NCBI GenBank assembly: GCA_031262035.1
Contig: JAISIL010000078.1
Span: 1-35,665 of the forward strand
DNA length: 35,665 bases
Source of the DNA: Spirochaetaceae bacterium
GTDB lineage: Bacteria > Spirochaetota > Spirochaetia > Treponematales > Breznakiellaceae
Reading direction: 5' to 3'
Position numbers and translations under genes: made by a program. Of the stretch, positions 3,438 to 34,081 are shown one piece after another. The stretch's first letter is position 1. Each line of letters starts with the position of its first letter. Below the pieces are notes generated by a model that searched no databases, was not told the origin of the DNA, and saw nothing but the letters and a program-made list of their open reading frames with translations.

Positions 3438-3467
3438 AATAATGACAGAGTTATGATGCATAAAATT

Positions 3468-3516
3468 TCCGGCGGGATTACGCAAAACAGGCTGCTTTAG
3501 GAAACAGCCTGAGAGG
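3468..3516 (+). promoter_or_regulatory. Repeated lipoprotein leader with hairpin (copy 2)
   Basis: The first 27 bases (3468-3494) are identical to 966-992. The stem CAGGCTG (3488-3494) / CAGCCTG (3505-3511) is kept although the loop differs from copy 1 in both length and sequence. An inner TTT/AAA pairing replaces the copy 1 loop. The ribosome site AGAGGAG follows directly. Conservation of the stem with a changed loop suggests that RNA structure matters. Confidence 0.6.
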
Positions 3517-3523
3517 AGTCTTT

Positions 3524-3859
3524 ATGAAAAGGACTAAGCTATTAGGTCTGGCCGCAGTAGTGGCCGTGGTTGTGTCGGCGGCACTATTCGCCAGCTGTTC
3601 TACATTCCCCACTGTTGGGGTGACGCAGGGTGGCATGAATTACGAACTTCTCGGTTACATCGGTGACGGGTATGCCAGCTATGCTGCGGCTTTAGAAGCT
3701 GGGAAAGCGAAATATCCTGACTGTGAAGCTGTGGTAAAGCTTACAGGAACAACCAACGATAACATCATCCCAGGCTCAATTGTTTATGGATACTACGCAG
3801 CGAAATTTAAAGAAGGTGAAGGCGGCGCAGCAGGCGGCATTCTGGGCAAAGTATTCTAG
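3524..3859 (+). CDS. Small hypothetical lipoprotein
   Basis: This is a 111-residue precursor. The signal peptide MKRTKLLGLAAVVAVVVSAA ends in the lipobox LFASC with Cys25. The mature part (YELLGYIGDGYASYAAALEA, then KYPDCEAVVKLTGTT) looks like a small alpha/beta fold. It ends in a Gly/Ala-rich tail GGAAGGILGKVF that may touch a membrane. No family was recognised with confidence. The signal peptide and leader closely match those of the lipoprotein at 1020, but the mature sequences do not. A strong terminator follows at 3874-3933, so it is a single-gene transcript. Confidence 0.78.
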   Translation: MKRTKLLGLAAVVAVVVSAALFASCSTFPTVGVTQGGMNYELLGYIGDGYASYAAALEAGKAKYPDCEAVVKLTGTTNDNIIPGSIVYGYYAAKFKEGEGGAAGGILGKVF

Positions 3860-6247: not shown

Positions 6248-7786
6248 ATGAAAGATGAAAAGAAAAAGTCTGCGGAAGAGCAGTCTGAGTTTAAAAGAAG
6301 GTTCAAGCAAAACCCTGTGCTTATTATCGGGGCCTTTGTTATTGCTATCCTTTCGGTTTTATCCTTTGTTTTATTCCCTGCGATAGTTCCGCAGGCGGCC
6401 GGGGCCTTTTCCAACGAGCTGGTCTTCGGTTCCTACGATGGCACTACTATTCAGTATGTGCCGGGGAACAATTTTGCCAATACCGTGCGCTACTACGCAA
6501 GCATGTATGGCAAGGACATCAATACCATGTCCGGCAGCGATTATAACACGATGCAAATATGGAACAGCGCCTATAAGGATGCTGCCACCCGGGTTGCCAT
6601 GTTAAAAGAGATGCAGGCTGCCGACTATGTGGCTCCCGATTCTCTTGTCGATAAAGAAGTAGCGGGCAATTCTCAGTTTCATGAAAATGGCAGGTTCTCG
6701 CCTGCGCTGTATCGTTCTCTTGATAATGCTACGCGGCTTGCCTTGTGGCGCGATACCCGCGATAGTCTTGCCGTTGGCAAGTATCTTGAAGATTTAACTT
6801 CGATTAAATCAAGCGATGCGGAAAAGAAATTTTTGGGCGAGATGGCCCGGAAGGTTCGTTCCTTTCAGATGGCCGCCTTCCCCCTTAGCTCATACCCTGA
6901 TAGCGAGGCCTTAAAGTTTGCAGCGGTAAACCCGGCGCTTTTTATGCAGGTGCATTTGTCGCAAATAACGGTAGCCGACAAGGCCGCCGCCGACAGCCTT
7001 TTGAACGAAATAAAGGCCGGCACACAAACCTTTGAAGACGCCGCCAAGGCAAGCTCCTCCGACCGCTATGCACAGCAGGGTGGTGACATGGGCACCATGA
7101 CGGCCTATGGTTTTGATACAATCATAACCGACGAAACAGAGCGAAAGGCCGTGCTTGCATTAAAGGACGGCGAATACAGTGCTGTTGTCACGGTGCCTGG
7201 TGGTTTTGCCTTCTACCGCTGTGAAGAAGACGCCAGGCCTTTAGACACAAGCAAGCCTGAACAGATTGCCATTGCCCGTGCCTACATGCAGGGCTTTGAA
7301 CGCGGCCAAATGGAAGACTATATTATTACTGCGGCACAGAAGATTGCAAGCGACACCCCAAGCCTTGGTTTCGAAGAAGCCTCAAAGGCAGTTGCCAATA
7401 CTCTTTTTTGGCCGGCAGATGCGCCTTTTAGTGTGCAAAGTTTTGGCCCGGTTCCGCTGAACTTTGGCGGGGACAGCCTTTTAAAGACACTGGATACTTC
7501 CAGTATTAGCTCTTTGGTAAGTGCTTCGAACAACGAAAACTTCTGGGAAAATGCCTTCGCTACACCGGTGAACAGCGCCTCAAAGCCCTTTGTTATGGGT
7601 GATTATATTGTCTCATTGTATCCTACCGAAGAAACAACAGACGAGGAAGGGGTGAGCAGTGTTGATACCCAATTGTCCTATTGGTTCAGCTATTCGGTGC
7701 AGCAGAGTATCAGCAACTTCTTCTTTAATAGCCCAAAAATGAAAGACAATTTCTGGGATGCCTTTTCCAGACTGTATGGTGGATGA
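6248..7786 (+). CDS. Membrane-anchored parvulin-type peptidyl-prolyl isomerase (SurA/PpiD-like)
   Basis: This is a 512-residue protein. After a charged N-terminus (MKDEKKKSAEEQ) comes one membrane helix (about 23-46, PVLIIGAFVIAILSVLSFVL). A large extracytoplasmic part follows. The parvulin-like rotamase core lies around residues 235-350: QVHLSQITV, FEDAAKASSSD, GGDMGTMTAYGF. SurA-like helical segments lie on both sides. It probably acts as a periplasmic foldase for exported proteins. The start at ATG 6248 fits the promoter; an upstream extension to 6182 would precede the promoter. Its stop overlaps the next ATG (ATGA), so it is co-translated with the MAF gene. The C-terminal 130 residues are not recognised. 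Confidence 0.8.
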   Translation: MKDEKKKSAEEQSEFKRRFKQNPVLIIGAFVIAILSVLSFVLFPAIVPQAAGAFSNELVFGSYDGTTIQYVPGNNFANTVRYYASMYGKDINTMSGSDYNTMQIWNSAYKDAATRVAMLKEMQAADYVAPDSLVDKEVAGNSQFHENGRFSPALYRSLDNATRLALWRDTRDSLAVGKYLEDLTSIKSSDAEKKFLGEMARKVRSFQMAAFPLSSYPDSEALKFAAVNPALFMQVHLSQITVADKAAADSLLNEIKAGTQTFEDAAKASSSDRYAQQGGDMGTMTAYGFDTIITDETERKAVLALKDGEYSAVVTVPGGFAFYRCEEDARPLDTSKPEQIAIARAYMQGFERGQMEDYIITAAQKIASDTPSLGFEEASKAVANTLFWPADAPFSVQSFGPVPLNFGGDSLLKTLDTSSISSLVSASNNENFWENAFATPVNSASKPFVMGDYIVSLYPTEETTDEEGVSSVDTQLSYWFSYSVQQSISNFFFNSPKMKDNFWDAFSRLYGG

Positions 7787-9156
7787 GCCCTTCCAAGACA
7801 ATCTACCTTTTACCGCCTCCGTTTAGTGACAAACAAACGGAGGCATTATTATCTCACCTTTCCGCCGATTCTGCATTGTTAAAACTGTCCCCCGGCGATG
7901 ATGTTTCCGGCCTTGTTCAGCAAAATTGGGGCGAAAGGGCCTTTGCCCATGTTGAAATAATCAAAATAAATGCCGCCTATAAAGAACACAAGGCCTATTA
8001 CGATGCCGCCGCCGAAAGCCTGCAAACAATGTTTGCCCGCGAATGGGCCAATGCCCTCACCCTTATCAATTTAGGCAGACGCTACGCATTAAACTTCATA
8101 AAAAACCTGGGTCTGGGACTGCGGTGGTCAGCGTTACCCCGGTGGTCGAGCTTGTCGAGACCACAAGATCTGGGAAGCCTTTCCTGGGGAGACGCAACGG
8201 TATTAGTCTGTGGAGCAGGGCCTTCCCTCGATGTATTCCTGAAAGATTTTAAGCGTCAGGCAAACGAAAAGATTATTTGTGTTGATACCGCTATTGGGGC
8301 ATTACAGGCACGGGGAATACAGCCTGATTTAGTGCTCGCCCTGGAATGCCAGCATTGGAATTTACGCGACTTCGTTGGGGTAGGGAAGGATTTACCTATT
8401 GCAATGGACATGAGTGCCCTGCCCCAAACCGCAGAGTTTGCAGGCGGAGGAGATGAGGAACGGAGCAGCTTATACCTGTTCTTCACACCTTGGACAAGGC
8501 TGCGGATTTTCGACCGCTTAGGAGAAGCAGGCTTCTTACCGGTGGCCTTTCCGCCAATGGGCTCGGTGGGGGTTTGTGCCCTGTATGCCGCACAGTGTTT
8601 AAGCACAGGGCCTATAAGAACAGCCGGCCTCGATTTTGCCTATTCGCTCGACGCCTACCATGCAAAAGGAACCCCCGGCTCAAAAGATCTCTACCGAAAA
8701 ACCACCCGCCTAAAAAGCCTTTACAATGCCGCCGCCGCATACCGCCCCGGTAGTGAAGCAATCAAAGGCAGCCAATCCCGCACCGACCCGGGCATGCGGG
8801 CTTATCGTAATTTGTTTCAAGAGCTCACGCGGAGGCGCAGAGGCGCAGAGGGTTTTGATATGATTACAAACAACAACCCCGCGTCCTCCGCGTCTCCGCG
8901 TGAGATATTTATTATTGAAAGCAATCGCGTCAAGAAATTGAAGAACATCTTGACCGGCGAAAATCCCGACACATCACAATTAGACACATTACTTGACGAA
9001 TGCGACTACCTCTATGCCCATTTTCCGGAATGTGCTGCTCGTATAGGCCCTGATGGCTTTATTCTTCGGCCGCCGGCAAGTGATTTGAGTTTTTTAAACA
9101 GGGTTCGTGCCGAATTAGAATTCTTTGATAAAGCCTGGGGGCAGGTGCTCGCGTAG
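7783..9156 (+). CDS. MAF-type flagellin glycosylation protein (DUF115)
   Basis: This 457-residue cytoplasmic protein has the DUF115/MAF signature VLVCGAGPSLD (about 139-149). It continues with IICVDTAIGALQARGIQPDLV, read here as ICVDTAIGAL plus IQPDLVLALE. Motility accessory factors of this family transfer nonulosonic-type sugars to flagellin. Treponemal periplasmic flagellins are known to be glycosylated. The gene starts inside the stop codon of the foldase gene (ATGA) and ends with a 42-base tail-to-tail overlap with the kinase gene. Two palindromic repeats lie in frame within it (8141-8164 and 8824-8904). They encode WSSLSRP and an Arg-rich loop RRRRGAEGF, so the protein carries two repeat-derived insertions. 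Confidence 0.8.
   Translation: MSPSKTIYLLPPPFSDKQTEALLSHLSADSALLKLSPGDDVSGLVQQNWGERAFAHVEIIKINAAYKEHKAYYDAAAESLQTMFAREWANALTLINLGRRYALNFIKNLGLGLRWSALPRWSSLSRPQDLGSLSWGDATVLVCGAGPSLDVFLKDFKRQANEKIICVDTAIGALQARGIQPDLVLALECQHWNLRDFVGVGKDLPIAMDMSALPQTAEFAGGGDEERSSLYLFFTPWTRLRIFDRLGEAGFLPVAFPPMGSVGVCALYAAQCLSTGPIRTAGLDFAYSLDAYHAKGTPGSKDLYRKTTRLKSLYNAAAAYRPGSEAIKGSQSRTDPGMRAYRNLFQELTRRRRGAEGFDMITNNNPASSASPREIFIIESNRVKKLKNILTGENPDTSQLDTLLDECDYLYAHFPECAARIGPDGFILRPPASDLSFLNRVRAELEFFDKAWGQVLA
8141..8164 (-). repeat. Palindromic repeat family A, in frame in the MAF gene
   Basis: These 24 bases are the exact reverse complement of 33029-33052, in the gap behind deoD, and closely match 16942-16966 inside another gene. 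The copy sits just before the DUF115 signature and adds RWSSLSRP to the protein without breaking the frame. The upstream piece GGTGGTCAGCGTTACC (8123-8138) may belong to the same insertion. Confidence 0.8.
8824..8904. repeat. 81-base palindromic repeat, in frame in the MAF gene
   Basis: The arms begin CTCACGCGGAG (8824) and end CTCCGCGTGAG (to 8904). They pair over about 28 bases, with GGCGCAGAGG units against CCTCCGCG units. The length is exactly 27 codons. It encodes LTRRRRGAEGFDM and then NNNPASSASPRE, low-complexity peptide unlike the surrounding protein. It belongs to the CACGGAG style also seen at 1426-1493. Confidence 0.8.
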
Positions 9157-14750: not shown

Positions 14751-14834
14751 GTAGCAAGTAGCAGGTAGCAGGTAGCACATCAAAATTGCTACTTGCTCCT
14801 TGCTACCTGCTACTTTGAGGCGGCTTTAGCCGCC
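14751..14834. repeat. GTAGCA-type palindromic repeat plus small hairpin between chvE and gguA
   Basis: Two 27-base arms (14751-14777, 14787-14813) are made of GTAGCA/GGTAGCA units and their inverse copies. They can fold into a long hairpin. A second perfect hairpin GGCGGC-TTTA-GCCGCC (14819-14834) follows at once, next to the chvE stop. Hairpins at this place in binding-protein operons commonly protect the upstream mRNA and keep the binding protein in excess. That function is inferred here. Confidence 0.7.
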
Positions 14835-16165: not shown

Positions 16166-16195
16166 TTGACAAAATTATGATTTTTTATGTATAAT
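16166..16195 (+). promoter_or_regulatory. Consensus promoter of the carbohydrate operon, predicted leaderless
   Basis: -35 TTGACA (16166-16171), an 18-base spacer and -10 TATAAT (16190-16195). The ATG at 16202 follows after only 6 bases (AACCGG). No ribosome site is available. The mRNA should begin at the start codon. Confidence 0.8.
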
Positions 16196-16201
16196 AACCG
16201 G

Positions 16202-19132
16202 ATGCTTGTAGATGCCTTGGCTAAATTAAAGGGAGTATTAATACTCCTTGCTGTTTGTATCGGTTTAGTTGTGTATTTTACCTTTCGGGGAAATTCAGAA
16301 CAAAATTACAGCGCTGAATACGAAGGACAGAACCTTCAGGTAAGAGTTGGCGGGCGGCAAAACACCTACAGCTCTTATCTCGAAAATCATGCCGGCGACC
16401 CTTTGGGGGCAGCTCTTGTTCCGGTCGACCTTTTTTCGTATACGGAAAATTCAAGCGGTGTTTCCCCGTTGAGTAACTACGAAGGCGAAGCCCGCTCTCT
16501 GCGTGCCGAAGAAGTAAGTTTTCTTCAATATAATATAAACATTCCTGCCGAGGGCATGTATAATATCTACATTGAATACTTTCCGGCCGAGGCACGGGGC
16601 ATTGCTATCGAGCGTTCTTTTACTATCAATGGCGGCTCGCCCTTCCTTGGTTCCGAGCAATTGTCTTTTCAGAGGGTCTGGGGCGATGCACCCGGCGGCA
16701 TCCGCTATGATAATCAGGGGAATATGATTCGCCCTACCCAGGTTGAAAAGCCCCGCTGGGAATCAAGCTATTTTAAAGATTACATGGGCTATTATACCGA
16801 CCCCTACCGCTTTTACTTTAAGGCCGGCCGCAATACAATAGAGCTTACCGGCATTAACGAACCGCTGGTTATTCGCAAAATGGAAATCCGGCCTGTCGAC
16901 CATGTTCCTTCGTATAAGGAATATATTGAATATAGTGGCGCGGTGGTTTCGACAAGCTCAACCACCGTGGTCACCGCGGTCTCTGGGGCTCCGCGTGAGC
17001 CTATTAAAATACAGGGCGAAGATTCTACGACACGCAGCGACCCATCGCTCTATGCTGTCTATGACCGCTCAAGCGGCGCTACCGAACCTTCAAGTGTTGC
17101 AAAAATCGTTCTGAATATGATTGGCGGCAACGCCTGGCGTGTTCCCGGCCAGTGGATTGAGTGGGAATTTGATGTGGGTGCCGATGATTACTATGCCCTT
17201 TCTATCAAGGCAAGGCAGAATTACAATCGCGGCTTTGTTTCAAACCGTTCGGTGATGATAGACGGCGCTATCCCCTGTGCAGAGCTTTCCGCTGTGCCCT
17301 TCCGTTTTTCCAACACCTGGGAACTTGTCACCTTGAATGATGGCTCAGGCGCTTCGGGCAAGGGCGAGCCGCTTTACTTCCCTCTCAAAAAGGGCAAGCA
17401 TACGATTCGTATGGAGGTAAGCCTTGGCGACCTTGGCGTATTGCTGAATACTATGGAAGAAAGTGTCTTCCGCTTGAATGAAATCTACCGGAAAATCCTT
17501 GTGCTTACCGGCCCGGAGCCGGACCCCTATCGCGATTATCGTGTCGATTTTGTCTATCCCGAAGTAATAAGGGCAATGCAGCTTGAAAGCAAGATTCTCT
17601 ATAAGCTTGTTGATGATTTAACCGCCTATGCAGGCGAAAGGGGCAGTCAGACAGCGGTAGCCCTCACTCTTGCCAAGCAGTGTCAGCTTCTGGCGCGGCG
17701 CCCCGACAGGATTCCCCGCACGCTATCAAACTTTAAATCGAATATATCTTCACTTGGGGACAGCTTGAATGCGCTCTCTCAATCGCAGCTTGATATCGAT
17801 TGGCTGATGCTTTCAACAGAAGATGCTGCGCTGCCCCGTGTGCACGAAAATTTCCTTCAGGCCGCCGCTCACGAAGTCCAGTCCTTCGGTGCATCCTTCG
17901 TAGTCGATTATAACAATCTTGGTGATGTATACGATGGCAGCGATGTTGTGGAAGTCTGGATTCTTTCAGGCCGCGACCAGAGCACTATCTTAAAGTCGAT
18001 GATAGACGATACCTTTACCCCGAATACCGGCATCAAGGTCAATGTAAAACTGGTTGCAGCCGATGCGGTTATGCCTGCTGTCGTTGCCGGAACGGGGCCG
18101 GATATTGGTTTAACCATTTTACAGGGCGACCCGGTAAACTATGCCTTACGCAGTGCCGCAGTCGACTTAAGCCAGTTCCCCGATTTTGATAAGGTGATAC
18201 AGGCTTTTACCCTCAGTGCAATGGTTCCCTTCTATTTTGAAGACGGCTGTTATGCCCTGCCTGAAACCCAGTATTTCCATGTAATGTTCTATCGAAGCGA
18301 TATTCTGGAACAGCTTGGTGTAGACCCGCCGCAAACCTGGGAGGACCTGATTAAAATTCTGCCTGTTATACAAAAGAGCAATATGAATGTTGGTATTCCC
18401 AGTCTTGCAACAGCCAGCGACTTCTCGGGCTTTTTGGCGCAGTTGTATCAGCGGAGCGGCAAACTGTATAATGCAGACGGTTCCCGCACCCTGCTCGATA
18501 GCGAGGTTTCTATAGAAGCTTTTGATGCCTACACCAAGTTTTATACCCATTATAAAACACCTACCGTCTTCGATTTTGTTAACCGTTTCCGCACCGGCGA
18601 AATGCCCCTTGGTTTTGCAGACTACACTACCTTTAATACCCTGGAAGTTTTTGCCCCCGAAATCCGCGGCTTGTGGGACTTTGGTTTATTGCCCGGCATT
18701 AGGCAGTCCGATGGCAGCATAAAAAGGACAATTCCTACCGGCAGCACAGCGGCTATGATTTATACGGGAAGCAAGGTTCAGGATAAGGCCTGGGAATTCC
18801 TTAAATGGTGGGTGTCCGACCCCATTCAATTGCGTTTTGGCCGTGAACTGGAAAGTGTTATGGGCGCTGCAGGCCGCTATCCTACAAGCAATGTGGCTGC
18901 CTCCAAGGGTTTAAGCTGGGGGGCAAAAGAAATGCAGGTATTAACTGCCATGCGGGAATGGACACAGGGAACGCCCGAAGTCCCCGGTGGCTATTATGTA
19001 AACAGGCACATCGTTAATGCCACACGAAAGGTTTTGAACGAAGGCGCCGACACCCGTGAAACCCTTTTGGATTATTCACGCACCATAAACGATGAGTTAA
19101 TCAAAAAACGAAAAGAATTTGGTTTGGAATAG
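16202..19132 (+). CDS. Membrane-anchored fusion: two CBM-like domains plus extracellular solute-binding domain
   Basis: This is a 976-residue protein. An N-terminal helix (about 10-30, GVLILLAVCIGLVVYFTF) acts as anchor or signal. Two beta-sandwich modules follow, about 40-245 (YNINIPAEGMYNIYIEYFPA) and 270-430 (WIEWEFDVGADDYYALSI). They resemble carbohydrate-binding modules of the CBM6/35 type. A helical linker (435-575) leads to a family 1 solute-binding domain (about 580-976): VVEVWILSGRDQST, TGIKVNVKLV, AGTGPDIGL, then TFNTLEVFAPEIRG. It would capture a glycan at the surface and hand it to the permeases behind it. A family A palindromic repeat (16942-16966) encodes the linker VVSTSSTTV between the two modules. 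The start is dictated by the promoter. Confidence 0.82.
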   Translation: MLVDALAKLKGVLILLAVCIGLVVYFTFRGNSEQNYSAEYEGQNLQVRVGGRQNTYSSYLENHAGDPLGAALVPVDLFSYTENSSGVSPLSNYEGEARSLRAEEVSFLQYNINIPAEGMYNIYIEYFPAEARGIAIERSFTINGGSPFLGSEQLSFQRVWGDAPGGIRYDNQGNMIRPTQVEKPRWESSYFKDYMGYYTDPYRFYFKAGRNTIELTGINEPLVIRKMEIRPVDHVPSYKEYIEYSGAVVSTSSTTVVTAVSGAPREPIKIQGEDSTTRSDPSLYAVYDRSSGATEPSSVAKIVLNMIGGNAWRVPGQWIEWEFDVGADDYYALSIKARQNYNRGFVSNRSVMIDGAIPCAELSAVPFRFSNTWELVTLNDGSGASGKGEPLYFPLKKGKHTIRMEVSLGDLGVLLNTMEESVFRLNEIYRKILVLTGPEPDPYRDYRVDFVYPEVIRAMQLESKILYKLVDDLTAYAGERGSQTAVALTLAKQCQLLARRPDRIPRTLSNFKSNISSLGDSLNALSQSQLDIDWLMLSTEDAALPRVHENFLQAAAHEVQSFGASFVVDYNNLGDVYDGSDVVEVWILSGRDQSTILKSMIDDTFTPNTGIKVNVKLVAADAVMPAVVAGTGPDIGLTILQGDPVNYALRSAAVDLSQFPDFDKVIQAFTLSAMVPFYFEDGCYALPETQYFHVMFYRSDILEQLGVDPPQTWEDLIKILPVIQKSNMNVGIPSLATASDFSGFLAQLYQRSGKLYNADGSRTLLDSEVSIEAFDAYTKFYTHYKTPTVFDFVNRFRTGEMPLGFADYTTFNTLEVFAPEIRGLWDFGLLPGIRQSDGSIKRTIPTGSTAAMIYTGSKVQDKAWEFLKWWVSDPIQLRFGRELESVMGAAGRYPTSNVAASKGLSWGAKEMQVLTAMREWTQGTPEVPGGYYVNRHIVNATRKVLNEGADTRETLLDYSRTINDELIKKRKEFGLE
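16942..16966 (+). repeat. Palindromic repeat family A, in frame in the binding-protein fusion
   Basis: The 25 bases begin GGTGGTTTCGAC and end GCTCAACCACC. They match the inverted right arm of the repeat at 33087-33112 and differ slightly from 8141-8164. They encode VVSTSSTTV between the two CBM-like modules. The next bases (GTGGTCACCGCGG...CTCCGCGTGAG, to about 16999) resemble the end of the 8824-8904 element, so two repeat types may be joined here. Confidence 0.78.
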
Positions 19133-30306: not shown

Positions 30307-30400
30307 AACCACGAAGGACACCAAGGACACAAAGAAGATATAATAATTGTATTATACTTAGTGTCCTTAGTGTCCTTAGTGTCCTTTGTGGTTTTTTTTT
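30307..30400 (+). repeat. CACGAAGGACAC-type palindromic repeat acting as terminator
   Basis: The left arm AACCACGAAGGACACC... (30307-30334) pairs with the right arm ...GTGTCCTTTGTGGTT (30361-30393). The run of T up to 30400 makes the element look like a rho-independent terminator behind the binding-protein gene. Its loop contains TATAAT-like sequence (30339-30345) that might start the next transcript. Confidence 0.72.
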
Positions 30401-30409
30401 GGAAAAATT

Positions 30410-31738
30410 ATGAAAACAAAAAATACTTGTTGTTTGCGCCCACCTATGGGCTGGAATTCCTGGGATTGTTATGCGGCAAATGTTACCGAAGAACAATTAT
30501 TGGCACATGCAGAATATATGGCAAAAAACCTAAAACAATATGGCTGGGAGTATATTGTCTGTGATATTCAATGGGCATGCGAGCGGAAAGAAGACAGTGA
30601 TGAAGTGTATATTCCCTTTGCAGACCTTTGTATGGATGAATATTCACGGCTAATCCCTGCGCCCAACCGTTTTCCGTCTTCGATAAACGGGAAGGGTTTT
30701 GCCCCCATTGCAGAAAAGGTCCATGCACTGGGTTTAAAGTTTGGCATACATATTATGCGTGGCATTCCCCGGCAGGCGGTGCACCAATACGGGAAAATAA
30801 AATCGGTAAAAGAGAAGGGGCAAGCCCGTTTGGCACGGGAAGTAGCCAACCCATTTTCGGTTTCCCGTTGGCAGCCTGATATGTATGGCGTAGATAGAAC
30901 AAAAGCAGGTGCACAGGATTATTATGATTCCCTTTTTGAGATCTATGCAAGCTGGGGTGTCGATTATGTAAAGGTTGATGATATATGCAACACCAACATG
31001 TGGCCCCACAAACCCTACAGTGGCAAAGATGAAATAGAAATGATTCGCCTGGCAATTGATAAATGCGGAAGGCCAATGGTTTTAAGCCTTTCCCCCGGGC
31101 CTGCAATTATTACCGAGGCATGGCACCTGGGCGAGTATGCAAACATGTGGCGCATTACCGATGATTTCTGGGATTCCTGGCCTTTATTGCTGGACATGTT
31201 TACAAGGTGCGAAATCTGGCAGGACCATGTTAAACCGGGGAACTGGCCTGATTGTGATATGCTCCCTCTGGGGCAAATTGGTGTAGGTTTTATTGAAAGC
31301 GGCAAGAGCGCAGCCCGTAATACCAAGTTCACAAAGGATGAGCAGATAACACTGATGACATTGTGGAGCATTTTCCGTGCACCTTTAATGCTTGGCGCCG
31401 TTTTAAGCGAACCGAAATTGGGCTTTGAAATAGACGATTGGACACTGTCGTTAATCACAAACCCTGAAGTCCTTGCTGTTGGCCAGCTTGGGAAAGAACC
31501 ACATCAAATACGGCGTAGTGCTTTTGATGCAGTCTGGGTAAACAAGGCCTGTGATGAGGCCGGTAATGAAACAGGCGAAACAAACCTTGCCCTTTTTAAC
31601 CTGAGTGATGAGGCAAGAGAAGTGCCTCTTGACATGCCTGTATCTAAAATGCGTGATTTATGGGAACAAAAAGACATTACAACAAAACCATCGTTTCATA
31701 TTCCTGCTCATGGTTCTGTTCTATTGAGAATAAAATGA
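30410..31738 (+). CDS. Alpha-galactosidase, glycoside hydrolase family 27
   Basis: This 442-residue protein is a GH27 enzyme. The N-terminal hallmark is PPMGWNSWDCY (11-21). The nucleophile is expected at Asp190 in YVKVDDICN. The acid/base is expected at Asp252 in WRITDDFWDSW, with Arg248 spaced as in the family. A C-terminal beta-sandwich ends the protein. No signal peptide is present, so it should act in the cytoplasm on imported galactosides. This agrees with the upstream importer. The start was set at ATG 30410, with a weak GGA site 6 bases upstream. A longer frame from 30386 lies inside the repeat and is rejected. Confidence 0.9.
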   Translation: MKTKNTCCLRPPMGWNSWDCYAANVTEEQLLAHAEYMAKNLKQYGWEYIVCDIQWACERKEDSDEVYIPFADLCMDEYSRLIPAPNRFPSSINGKGFAPIAEKVHALGLKFGIHIMRGIPRQAVHQYGKIKSVKEKGQARLAREVANPFSVSRWQPDMYGVDRTKAGAQDYYDSLFEIYASWGVDYVKVDDICNTNMWPHKPYSGKDEIEMIRLAIDKCGRPMVLSLSPGPAIITEAWHLGEYANMWRITDDFWDSWPLLLDMFTRCEIWQDHVKPGNWPDCDMLPLGQIGVGFIESGKSAARNTKFTKDEQITLMTLWSIFRAPLMLGAVLSEPKLGFEIDDWTLSLITNPEVLAVGQLGKEPHQIRRSAFDAVWVNKACDEAGNETGETNLALFNLSDEAREVPLDMPVSKMRDLWEQKDITTKPSFHIPAHGSVLLRIK

Positions 31739-31740
31739 TG

Positions 31741-31793
31741 TATAATTAACCGTCCACCTTTCGCATCTTTTGCGTGGTTGACGGTTAATTATA
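31741..31793. terminator. Bidirectional terminator between convergent genes
   Basis: TATAATTAACCGTC (31741-31754) and GACGGTTAATTATA (31780-31793) are perfect 14-base inverted arms. An inner CGCA/TGCG stem lies within. It separates the alpha-galactosidase gene from the convergent EIIA gene and ends exactly at the EIIA stop codon. Confidence 0.75.
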
Positions 31794-32240
31794 TTACTCG
31801 GATAAGGCCTTTAACACTTCATCTGCATTCGTTGCCTTAAGGATTTCGGCCCTCTTTTCGGAGCTCTTAAAGAGCAGGCTGATTTCCGCAAGGAACTGAA
31901 GATGCGGGCCGGTTTTTTCGACCGGGGAAAGCGTCATGATGAAAATCCTGCAAGGTTCATGGTCGAGCGAGTCGAAGTCCACCGGACTGTCCGAAATGCC
32001 GATACATGCAACCAGGTCTTTCAACGCAGAACTCTTTCCGTGGGGAATAGCAATTCCGTGTTTCATGCCGGTTGACATCTTTTGTTCGCGTTCCATAACG
32101 GCCTTCAGAGCATCATCTCTGTCCTGAATCTTGCCTGCTGCCACCAGAATATCGAGTAATTCACCGATGATTTCGTTCTTGGTGGTCCCGTTCAAATGAA
32201 GGTTAATTGTTTCCTTTGTTAATACTGTCTTGAGGTTCAT
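31794..32240 (-). CDS. PTS system EIIA component, fructose/nitrogen type
   Basis: This 148-residue single-domain protein belongs to the PTS EIIA-2 family (fructose, mannitol and PtsN type). The phospho-His is His67 in GIAIPHGKS. Other family blocks are MKHGIAIPHG, VDFDSLDHEPCRIFIMTLSP and HLQFLAEISLLFKS. No EIIB or EIIC is encoded nearby, so a regulatory PtsN-like role is more likely than sugar transport. The ATG at 32240 stands 8 bases behind the -10, while another ATG at 32246 stands only 2 bases behind it. The mRNA is probably leaderless or nearly so, since no ribosome site exists. Confidence 0.88.
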   Translation of the reverse strand: MNLKTVLTKETINLHLNGTTKNEIIGELLDILVAAGKIQDRDDALKAVMEREQKMSTGMKHGIAIPHGKSSALKDLVACIGISDSPVDFDSLDHEPCRIFIMTLSPVEKTGPHLQFLAEISLLFKSSEKRAEILKATNADEVLKALSE

Positions 32241-32248
32241 ATGCATTT

Positions 32249-32318: not shown

Positions 32319-33026
32319 ATGTCAACACATATTGCTGCAAAGAAGGGACAGATTGCCGATGCGGTTTTGCTTCCCGGTGATCCTTTGCGTGCCAAGTTTA
32401 TTGCGGAAACCTATCTGGAAAAGGCTGTTTGCTATTCGGAAGTCCGCAATATGTTCGGTTTTACCGGCTATTACAAGGGTAAAAAGGTTTCCGTGCAGGG
32501 AACAGGGATGGGAGTGCCTTCGATTTCTATCTATGTAAATGAGCTTTTTCAATTTTATGGGGTAAAAAAGGCTATTCGGATTGGCACAGCAGGTGCAATT
32601 CAGAAAGATATTAAGCTAAAAGATATTGTTTTGGCGATGACCGCCTCTAGCGACAATGGCGCCAATGCGATAAGGCTGGGGCCTGGCCGTGTTTTTGCGC
32701 CGCCTGCCAGTTTTAGCCTTTTAAAAAAGGCCTGGGATGCCGCAGAGGCAAAAAAGTATCCGGTGAAGGTCGGTTCTGTTGTTACATCGGATATGTTTTA
32801 CACCGAAGACCCCAATGAATGGAAGAATTGGGCCAAATGGGGCTGCCTTGCCATTGAAATGGAATGCGCCGAGCTTTATACCCTGGCCGCCAAGTATAAG
32901 CGCGAAGCGCTGGGCATCCTCACTATCTCCGATAGTATGATTACCGGTGAGCAGACCAGCGCCGAAGAACGTCAGAAGACCTTCACCAAGATGATGGAAA
33001 TAGCGCTAGAGACGGTTGCCTGTTAG
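32319..33026 (+). CDS. deoD: Purine nucleoside phosphorylase, DeoD type
   Basis: This 235-residue protein has the length and motifs of hexameric DeoD enzymes: [15 protein letters not shown] (phosphate binding), [34 protein letters not shown] and [10 protein letters not shown] with the catalytic Asp. It splits purine (deoxy)ribonucleosides with phosphate to base and sugar 1-phosphate in the cytoplasm, for purine salvage. A GAGGAGG ribosome site precedes the ATG. It is divergent from the EIIA gene and followed by a large palindromic repeat instead of a typical terminator. Confidence 0.95.
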
Positions 33027-33028
33027 TT

Positions 33029-33112
33029 GTGGTCTCGACAAGCTCGACCACCGGAGGTTTGCTGGACACCGGAGGTTTGCTGGACACCGGTGGTTGAGCT
33101 TGTCGAAACCAC
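33029..33112. repeat. Palindromic repeat family A with internal tandem repeat
   Basis: The arms 33029-33054 and 33087-33112 are inverted copies with 24 of 26 bases matching (GTGGT..TCGACAAGCTC..). Between them an 18-base unit (AGGTTTGCTGGACACCGG) occurs twice in tandem (33055-33072, 33073-33090). The left arm is repeated in reverse inside the MAF gene, and the right arm inside the binding-protein fusion. It sits between two convergent genes, 2 bases behind the deoD stop. Confidence 0.85.
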
Positions 33113-33115
33113 ATC

Positions 33116-34081
33116 TTACTGATATATAATCAAGTTTGGTTTGGGGTCGAGGGCGAGAACTTCTTCCGGGCTGAGTATCGGGTTATCATAGCCGGCGCCG
33201 GGGATGTTGAAGTTGTAGAAAAGCTTGAAGCCTTTGACCGGCATGTTCTTTGCCTGGGCAAGGTAGGCATAGGTGTCTCGTTTAAGGCGCGGCGGACCGA
33301 AGCCGTCGGCGCAGTGAACGAGGCAGACGCCCGGATAGTCGGTCTCGACTGCTTTGCGATCTTTTATCATCTTGGCATCAAACTGATGAATAACAAGGAG
33401 GCGCTCGCCGGGAAGGCGGTGCTCTGCAAGATAGTCGGAGATAACTTTCTGGGCTTCGTTAATTTCCTCGCCGGTGACAGAACCGATTTCCTTCATGGGC
33501 TTTGCTGTTCGCCATTCAGGGTCGAGAGCCAGGTGGACATTGGGGTATCTTAAATAGGGTAGCATCGTTTTAAGGGAGTCGATGGGGTCATATTTGCCAA
33601 TTTGATGGTCGATAAACACAATAATATCATTTTCCTGGCAGAATTCAATGTAGCTGGTGAGGGTTTTTTTGTTGATATAACCAATTTCGCCTTCCGGCCA
33701 GACCGTTCCAAAAATCAGATAGAAGGCTTTGATGACTCCGCGGTCGCCATTGGCAGCATCGTATTCGCCGGCAAGCTCGGTAAGCTGCTGGTTTAGGGAT
33801 TCCTTGCTGTAGCGGCCGAGGATTCCCATGTTTGTTGAACTGGGATGGCCGTAAAAGGCAAGAATATCATTATTTTCCATGATATTTTGGTTCACAAGAA
33901 CTTCTTCCTTGATAGTTTCTTCTTCCGAAGGAACGCTATAGGGGAGGGAATCGAGGCTTGCCTGTTGAGCAATAATGTAATCTTTTAGATACATCTGCCG
34001 GATTTCGGCGGAAACAAGCTGCGGTTCAATCGTCACAAAGGCAACAAGTGCGATAATGAAGCGTAAAGTATGTCTTTTCAT
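33116..34081 (-). CDS. Secreted conserved hypothetical protein, TIM-barrel-like
   Basis: This is a 321-residue protein with a signal peptide (MKRHTLRFIIALVAFVTIEP, likely cleavage after VSA). The mature part alternates strands and helices as in a TIM barrel: ILAFYGHPSSTNMGILGRYS, GVIKAFYLIFGTVWPEGE, DIIVFIDHQIGK, NVHLALDPEWRT, RLLVIHQFDAKMI, VCLVHCADGFGPPRLK and VKGFKLFYNF. Acidic residues sit at strand ends (FIDH, LDPEW), as in glycosidases, but no family is recognised. No ribosome site precedes the ATG; GATAAT lies 9 bases upstream. It may be a cell-wall or polysaccharide enzyme; this is a guess. Confidence 0.7.
   Translation of the reverse strand: MKRHTLRFIIALVAFVTIEPQLVSAEIRQMYLKDYIIAQQASLDSLPYSVPSEEETIKEEVLVNQNIMENNDILAFYGHPSSTNMGILGRYSKESLNQQLTELAGEYDAANGDRGVIKAFYLIFGTVWPEGEIGYINKKTLTSYIEFCQENDIIVFIDHQIGKYDPIDSLKTMLPYLRYPNVHLALDPEWRTAKPMKEIGSVTGEEINEAQKVISDYLAEHRLPGERLLVIHQFDAKMIKDRKAVETDYPGVCLVHCADGFGPPRLKRDTYAYLAQAKNMPVKGFKLFYNFNIPGAGYDNPILSPEEVLALDPKPNLIIYQ

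Follow-up and report, generated by a model that had tools for sequence, protein, structure and literature searches.

Protein-coding palindromes have mostly been regarded as a curiosity of the intracellular Rickettsiales. The window analysed here, by which we mean the whole 35,665-nucleotide stretch of spirochaete DNA, contains at positions 33029-33112 a palindromic repeat whose arms recur inside two protein genes. An earlier note on this DNA had proposed a mobile palindrome that adds peptide segments to proteins, with the Rickettsia palindromic elements (RPEs) as the only comparable case it knew. As detailed below, the repeat is a protein-coding, REP-like palindrome of cross-phylum distribution whose behaviour resembles that of the RPEs and of intragenic REPs.

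The intergenic locus is a tag-inward dimer of two 25-nt units separated by a 34-nt spacer, with the following layout:

32319-33026, plus strand: upstream gene, a PNP_UDP_1 phosphorylase, with 2 nt between its stop codon and the dimer
33027-33114, plus strand: whole dimer, one long hairpin (DNA z -6.9, RNA z -7.8) occupying the entire gap between two convergent genes
33029-33053, minus strand: unit 1 of the dimer, 25 nt, CG tag at 33052-33053
33054-33087, no strand assigned: spacer of 34 nt, crossed by an 18-bp tandem duplication (33049-33066 and 33067-33084)
33088-33112, plus strand: unit 2 of the dimer, 25 nt, CG tag at 33088-33089
33116-34081, minus strand: convergent gene across the dimer, with no Pfam match

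The 23-mer core of the repeat, GTGGTYGAGCYTGTCGARACCAC, lies at 8142-8164 (plus strand), 16943-16965 (minus), 33029-33051 (minus) and 33090-33112 (plus) of the window, and a 19-mer core yields four matches without mismatch, against 0.02 expected from shuffled sequence. The interval 33029-33052 is indeed the exact reverse complement of 8141-8164, as had been noted, and the other arm does match the binding-protein gene, at 16943-16967 rather than at 16942-16966. Codon scoring bears out that both genes read through their copies in frame and without frameshift. The genic copies and their hosts are:

7783-9156, plus strand: host gene of a MAF-type protein, Pfam MptE-like domain (PF01973) at residues 136-288, element at about residues 120-128
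8122-8139, plus strand: degenerate half unit (CGGTGGTC...) adjoining the MAF copy, assigned by eye, part of the net gain of about 12 residues
8140-8164, plus strand: unit in the MAF-type gene, read as RWSSLSRP, phase S1
16187-19132, plus strand: host gene of a large protein, extracellular solute-binding domain (PF01547) at residues 600-881, element at residues 253-261, outside the domain
16943-16967, minus strand: unit in the binding-protein gene, antisense reading VVSTSSTTV, phase A0

A second MAF-type gene, from a rumen Treponema (L104:3435-4988), has an in-frame VVEPVETT unit of its own, at another position.

The anatomy of the element was defined from 123 copies in 86 clusters of the same genome. 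Each 25-nt unit consists of a CG, a 6-bp stem, the fixed loop GAGCYTGTCGA and the returning stem strand. The CG tag stands 5′ of the stem in 109 of the 110 units whose stem is 5 bp or longer, and the opposite side is not fixed. While the 11-nt centre is constant, the arms vary jointly, the observed pairs being GTGGTT/AACCAC, GTGGTC/GACCAC, GAGGTT/AACCTC, GGGGTC/GACCCC, GTCATT/AATGAC and GTCCCT/AGGGTC. Across all occurrences of the centre in the examined loci, a sample drawn without stem-based selection, complementarity at pairs 2-6 reaches 64-92% among distinct units, versus 43-63% expected for independent arms. The folding energy of a single DNA unit is only weakly better than that of shuffles (z -1.5 to -1.7), so it is covariation, not energy, that carries the structural claim; such covariation can also come from template-switch correction of palindromes and is by itself no proof of function. 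The loop could be read as tandem G·A pairs closed by a G-C pair, which would leave a loop of 5 nt instead of 11. Two or more units, mostly inverted, are found in 36 of the 86 clusters, where the commonest tag-inward spacings are -2 (a shared CG) and 9 nt, and single units show a weak base preference alongside, with C at -3 in 31/50 and C at +1 in 27/50. The same layout with other stems occurs in actinobacterial and Bacteroidales loci. One member of the same repeat family, in Propionicicella superfundia (L082:5257-5843), forms an unusual head-to-tail array of eleven same-strand units with GTCCTT stems.

Of the two findings that the earlier note named as refuting it, neither was made: orthologues from other genera lack the peptide, as described below, and the repeat is abundant in this genome. 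When up to 2 mismatches are allowed, 133 copies of the 23-mer core are present, and the reversed control sequence has no match in the same 3.07-Mb assembly (215 contigs, 99.2% complete, 0.2% contaminated). In the classification of the 86 mapped clusters, which takes in all but about 30 of the 133 copies, 48 clusters lie inside genes with the reading frame kept, as judged by codon scoring without the element, and about half lie outside genes. The non-coding copies mostly fall within tens of bases of 3′ gene ends, in convergent (13), same-strand (15) and, once, divergent gene pairs. The DNA flanking the units is mutually unrelated, and a search beside them for a recurrent gene, as would be left by an autonomous parent, returned only common housekeeping and transporter families.

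The proteins that harbor the element include housekeeping ones. Host families were named by NCBIfam, many above curated cut-offs, and for most of them the family match extends to either side of the insert; they include GyrA, PolA (two copies), LeuB (two copies), IleRS, ValRS, CysRS, MutS, PurA, MiaB, DusB, QueA, LipA, threonine synthase, pyrimidine-nucleoside phosphorylase, V-ATPase subunit A, GcvPB, DapL, CheA and HemW. The statistics exclude copies that fall within the first 30 codons, among them those of the CysRS, enoyl-CoA hydratase and PstA frames, as the start codon cannot be placed with certainty there. Comparison with orthologues from other genera of the family shows what the element adds: the peptide is absent from 19 MAF sequences (net gain about 12 residues), 4 binding-protein sequences (about 9) and 29 PolA sequences (about 9), and the net gain varies with the alignment, at 24-27 nt for clean single units and about 36 nt in MAF. 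The first PolA copy corresponds to an exact 9-residue gap relative to the solved structure of Taq polymerase and the second falls in a gapped stretch; the LeuB, ValRS and nucleoside phosphorylase inserts likewise appear as gaps relative to solved structures. In AlphaFold models built from the orthologue alignments, pLDDT drops below 50 at residues 116-125 of MAF, between a helix (70-113) and a strand (139-143), and at residues 54-59 and 758-760 of PolA, in disordered loops of otherwise confident folds. The MAF peptide and both PolA peptides are thus predicted to form low-confidence loops between intact secondary structure elements. Copies in essential genes are evidence, at the level of sequence, only that these genes stay open, and the host proteins would seem to tolerate the added peptides.

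Beyond mere openness of the frame, the units obey a reading-phase rule. Among the units in genes, 52 of 69 are in the phase in which the stem's first GTG is a codon (p 1e-12 against one third), so that the two strands read as VVE(P/L)VETT and VVST(S/G)STT, respectively; RWSSLSRP of the MAF copy represents a minority phase. The bias persists when counted by cluster (38/48 in this phase 0, p 1e-10) or over single units (23/27), and it recurs in Treponema bryantii (20 of 24 coding units, p 7e-7) and in the actinobacterial coding copies (5/5). Stop codons do not explain it, because all three frames are open in 33 of the 34 antisense units, yet these split 26:1:7. Purifying selection against the peptides of the other phases is the probable source of the bias. 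Given the siting of the non-coding copies at 3′ ends and of the coding copies in loops and in a tolerated phase, selection therefore seems to leave the element two refuges.

The phylogenetic distribution is patchy. The exact 23-mer occurs in 44 of 394 genomes of the order, these belonging to 3 of 92 genera, with 101 exact copies in the genome under study, 0-79 per genome in a rumen Treponema genus and none in every other surveyed genome of the host's own family. The cultured T. bryantii XBD1002 has 132 copies at up to 1 mismatch, and 22 of its 82 clusters are coding. Outside the order, the exact motif is found, among the matches listed, in Nocardioides, Marmoricola, Promicromonosporaceae, Arthrobacter, Cryobacterium and Bacteroidales, so that the repeat is no spirochaete speciality. 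When T. bryantii was compared with an 89%-identical relative, 7 of 8 alignable sites were empty in the relative, and the remaining one, in an nnrD-like gene, had a partial, possibly eroded look-alike. None of these empty sites is clean enough to reveal exact insertion ends or a target duplication, for even at 89% identity the loops flanking the units have themselves diverged too far. On sequence comparison, the pattern fits patchy acquisition and recent multiplication of the repeat, and the distribution together with the empty sites points to mobility. In two relatives of T. bryantii (L370 and L382), at the site orthologous to L346:4678, the same protein loop holds other palindromes, one of which fits a TGTC-tagged CGTC-type REP (ATTGTCGGGTCAAGCCCGACAATGACA); this loop has therefore been hit repeatedly by unrelated elements.

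Taken together, the abundance and structure of the repeat, its patchy distribution and in-frame siting, the gaps in orthologues and the phase bias are probably those of a non-autonomous REP-like hairpin that was patchily acquired, recently multiplied, and kept either 3′ of genes or in frame in loops. The repeat would have been acquired patchily by several bacterial phyla and would have multiplied recently in the present genome and, independently, in T. bryantii. New units may arrive through transposition of a single-stranded hairpin by a putative enzyme acting in trans; we know of no mobiliser for the RPEs or for the protein-coding palindromes of Wolbachia either. Copies would survive just 3′ of genes, or within genes where the net gain keeps the frame and lands in a loop, and one codon phase would become over-represented because both strands then read as flexible Val/Ser/Thr/Glu peptides (VVEPVETT, VVSTSSTT). 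The outcome would be a set of housekeeping proteins with added loops.

Several other readings have to be weighed against this one. Were the repeat a classical REP or REPIN that a RAYT (Y1 HUH) transposase mobilises within this genome, its small tagged hairpins, frequent inverted clusters and preference for 3′ gene ends would all be in character. We nonetheless consider this unlikely: Y1_Tnp (PF01797) is absent from both this genome and T. bryantii, the two richest genomes; Y1 carriage does not track the repeat (4/11 repeat-bearing versus 5/11 repeat-free genomes); 0 of 16 examined Y1 loci have a unit nearby; and the stem's GTGG, being base-paired and changing together with its partner, is no GTAG tag. 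On the first three of these grounds, a Y1/RAYT mobiliser was rejected for these genomes. It is scarcely credible that we are dealing with ordinary intergenic REP DNA whose in-gene copies are spurious or sit in mis-called ORFs, as the half of clusters outside genes might suggest, when GyrA, PolA, IleRS, ValRS and MutS are among the hosts, family matches mostly flank the insert on both sides, orthologues and PDB relatives show gaps, and the coding score supports the frames without the insert.

An invariant loop on a covarying stem would also suit recognition by a factor, and the unit could then have arisen where it stands, as a site under selection for protein binding or as an RNA site. Net codons gained relative to orthologues, unrelated flanks and the empty sites in a relative speak against an origin in place, and patchy presence across phyla fits transfer better, which makes this account very improbable. 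The phase bias in turn might reflect a phase-specific insertion target and not selection on the peptide, a reading that could draw on the weak base preference beside single units; we find it doubtful, however, as the same phase dominates in either orientation, for which two distinct target phases would be required, and prevails across genomes that differ greatly in composition. The preferred reading, a non-autonomous hairpin filtered after insertion, admits a bolder and quite tentative extension: the repeat might be a selfish palindrome, present in at least three phyla and shaped for coding compatibility, such that the same phase on either strand yields a tolerated linker, genes serve as insertion space, and loops are repeatedly added to core proteins.

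How does the element relate to known systems? The RPEs (RPE-1, RPE-4, RPE-6) and the Wolbachia palindromes, a protein-coding precedent according to the mention in PMC2229807, are similarly dispersed, occur both intergenically and in frame in conserved genes, and add peptides absent from orthologues. RPE-1, set apart by its published size of about 105-146 bp (PMC2229807), is much longer than the 25-nt unit, and the present element differs from the Rickettsia and Wolbachia palindromes in its CG tag, fixed GAGCYTGTCGA loop and presence in several phyla, and apparently in sequence. Rickettsia is not the sole comparable case, since the Wolbachia repeats, so far as that mention goes, and intragenic GTAG and CGTC REPs in Opitutus terrae, R. 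conorii and others (Di Nocera 2013, PMC3733652) precede this work. CGTC-REPs, which include RPE-4 and RPE-6 and were noted in Spirochaetes without link to a transposase (PMC3733652), are likewise short tagged hairpins that form inverted dimers and are in part intragenic. However, they have an unpaired CGTC, TGTC or CCTC tag, an 8-9 bp stem starting with A-T, a loop of 4-5 nt and an unpaired CCA tail, whereas here CG is followed by a paired G (109/110), the stem of 6 bp opens with G-C, the loop has 11 nt unless tandem G·A pairs shorten it to 5, and the 3′ flank is variable beyond the preferred C at +1. GTAG-REPs and REPINs share small hairpins, dimers, 3′-of-gene sites, covarying stems and intragenic copies (theirs in Opitutus terrae), but their GTAG/GTGG tag is unpaired, whereas GTGG here pairs with CCAC and covaries (GAGG, GGGG, GTCA, GTCC), and the two richest carriers tested lack their transposase. 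PARCELs are also palindromic coding repeats of distant taxa; they are tandem 25-residue repeats that build whole domains (Roske 2010, PMC2996958), whereas here units of 25 nt, alone or in pairs, are set into proteins that have nothing to do with one another. MITEs are marked by terminal inverted repeats, a target-site duplication and a parental transposase; here there is no recurrent neighbouring gene, and diverged flanks obscure any target-site duplication.

Since the defining features of the CGTC and GTAG groups were tested and are lacking, the repeat is not filed in a known REP superfamily. Rfam returned only sub-threshold hairpin look-alikes of the unit, the DNA string turned up only in papers that seem unrelated by title and abstract, and the peptide strings in no paper of the searched literature. 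The class of phenomenon is already known, because PMC3733652 describes intragenic REPs, and CGTC repeats in Spirochaetes without a transposase; as far as the searched literature shows, the novelty lies in the element as such, in its occurrence in at least three phyla, in its load in spirochaete housekeeping genes and in its shared reading phase. The original idea of a dispersed palindrome that adds in-frame peptides thus gains genome-wide support from orthologue gaps and codon-phase bias, and its mobility appears probable.

The wider significance is that a 25-nt element does in several phyla what had seemed peculiar to Rickettsiales, at high load and following a reading-phase rule that can be measured; one of its carriers, T. 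bryantii, is in culture. Two questions thereby become open to testing: by what route REP-like elements spread when no transposase is known for them, and how mobile DNA furnishes proteins with new loops. Annotation is affected as well, since dozens of unrelated proteins bear the same peptide tag.

The window holds further repeats in its own right. The stretches 960-1034 and 3462-3538 are similar (94% over 36 nt, 76% over the next 42), a probable duplication, and precede small ORFs at 1020-1376 and 3524-3859. A tandem array of the 9-bp unit TAGTGTCCT, with three exact copies and one degenerate copy, occupies 30350-30385, just upstream of the ORF at 30386. Positions 14756-14815, between two minus-strand genes, contain a 22-nt inverted repeat built on AAGTAGCAGGTAGCAGGTAGCA, a different palindrome class. 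Lastly, an 18-bp inverted repeat at 31741-31793 immediately follows the stop of an ORF that ends at 31738 and precedes the convergent ORF 31794-32246; it has the look of a bidirectional terminator.
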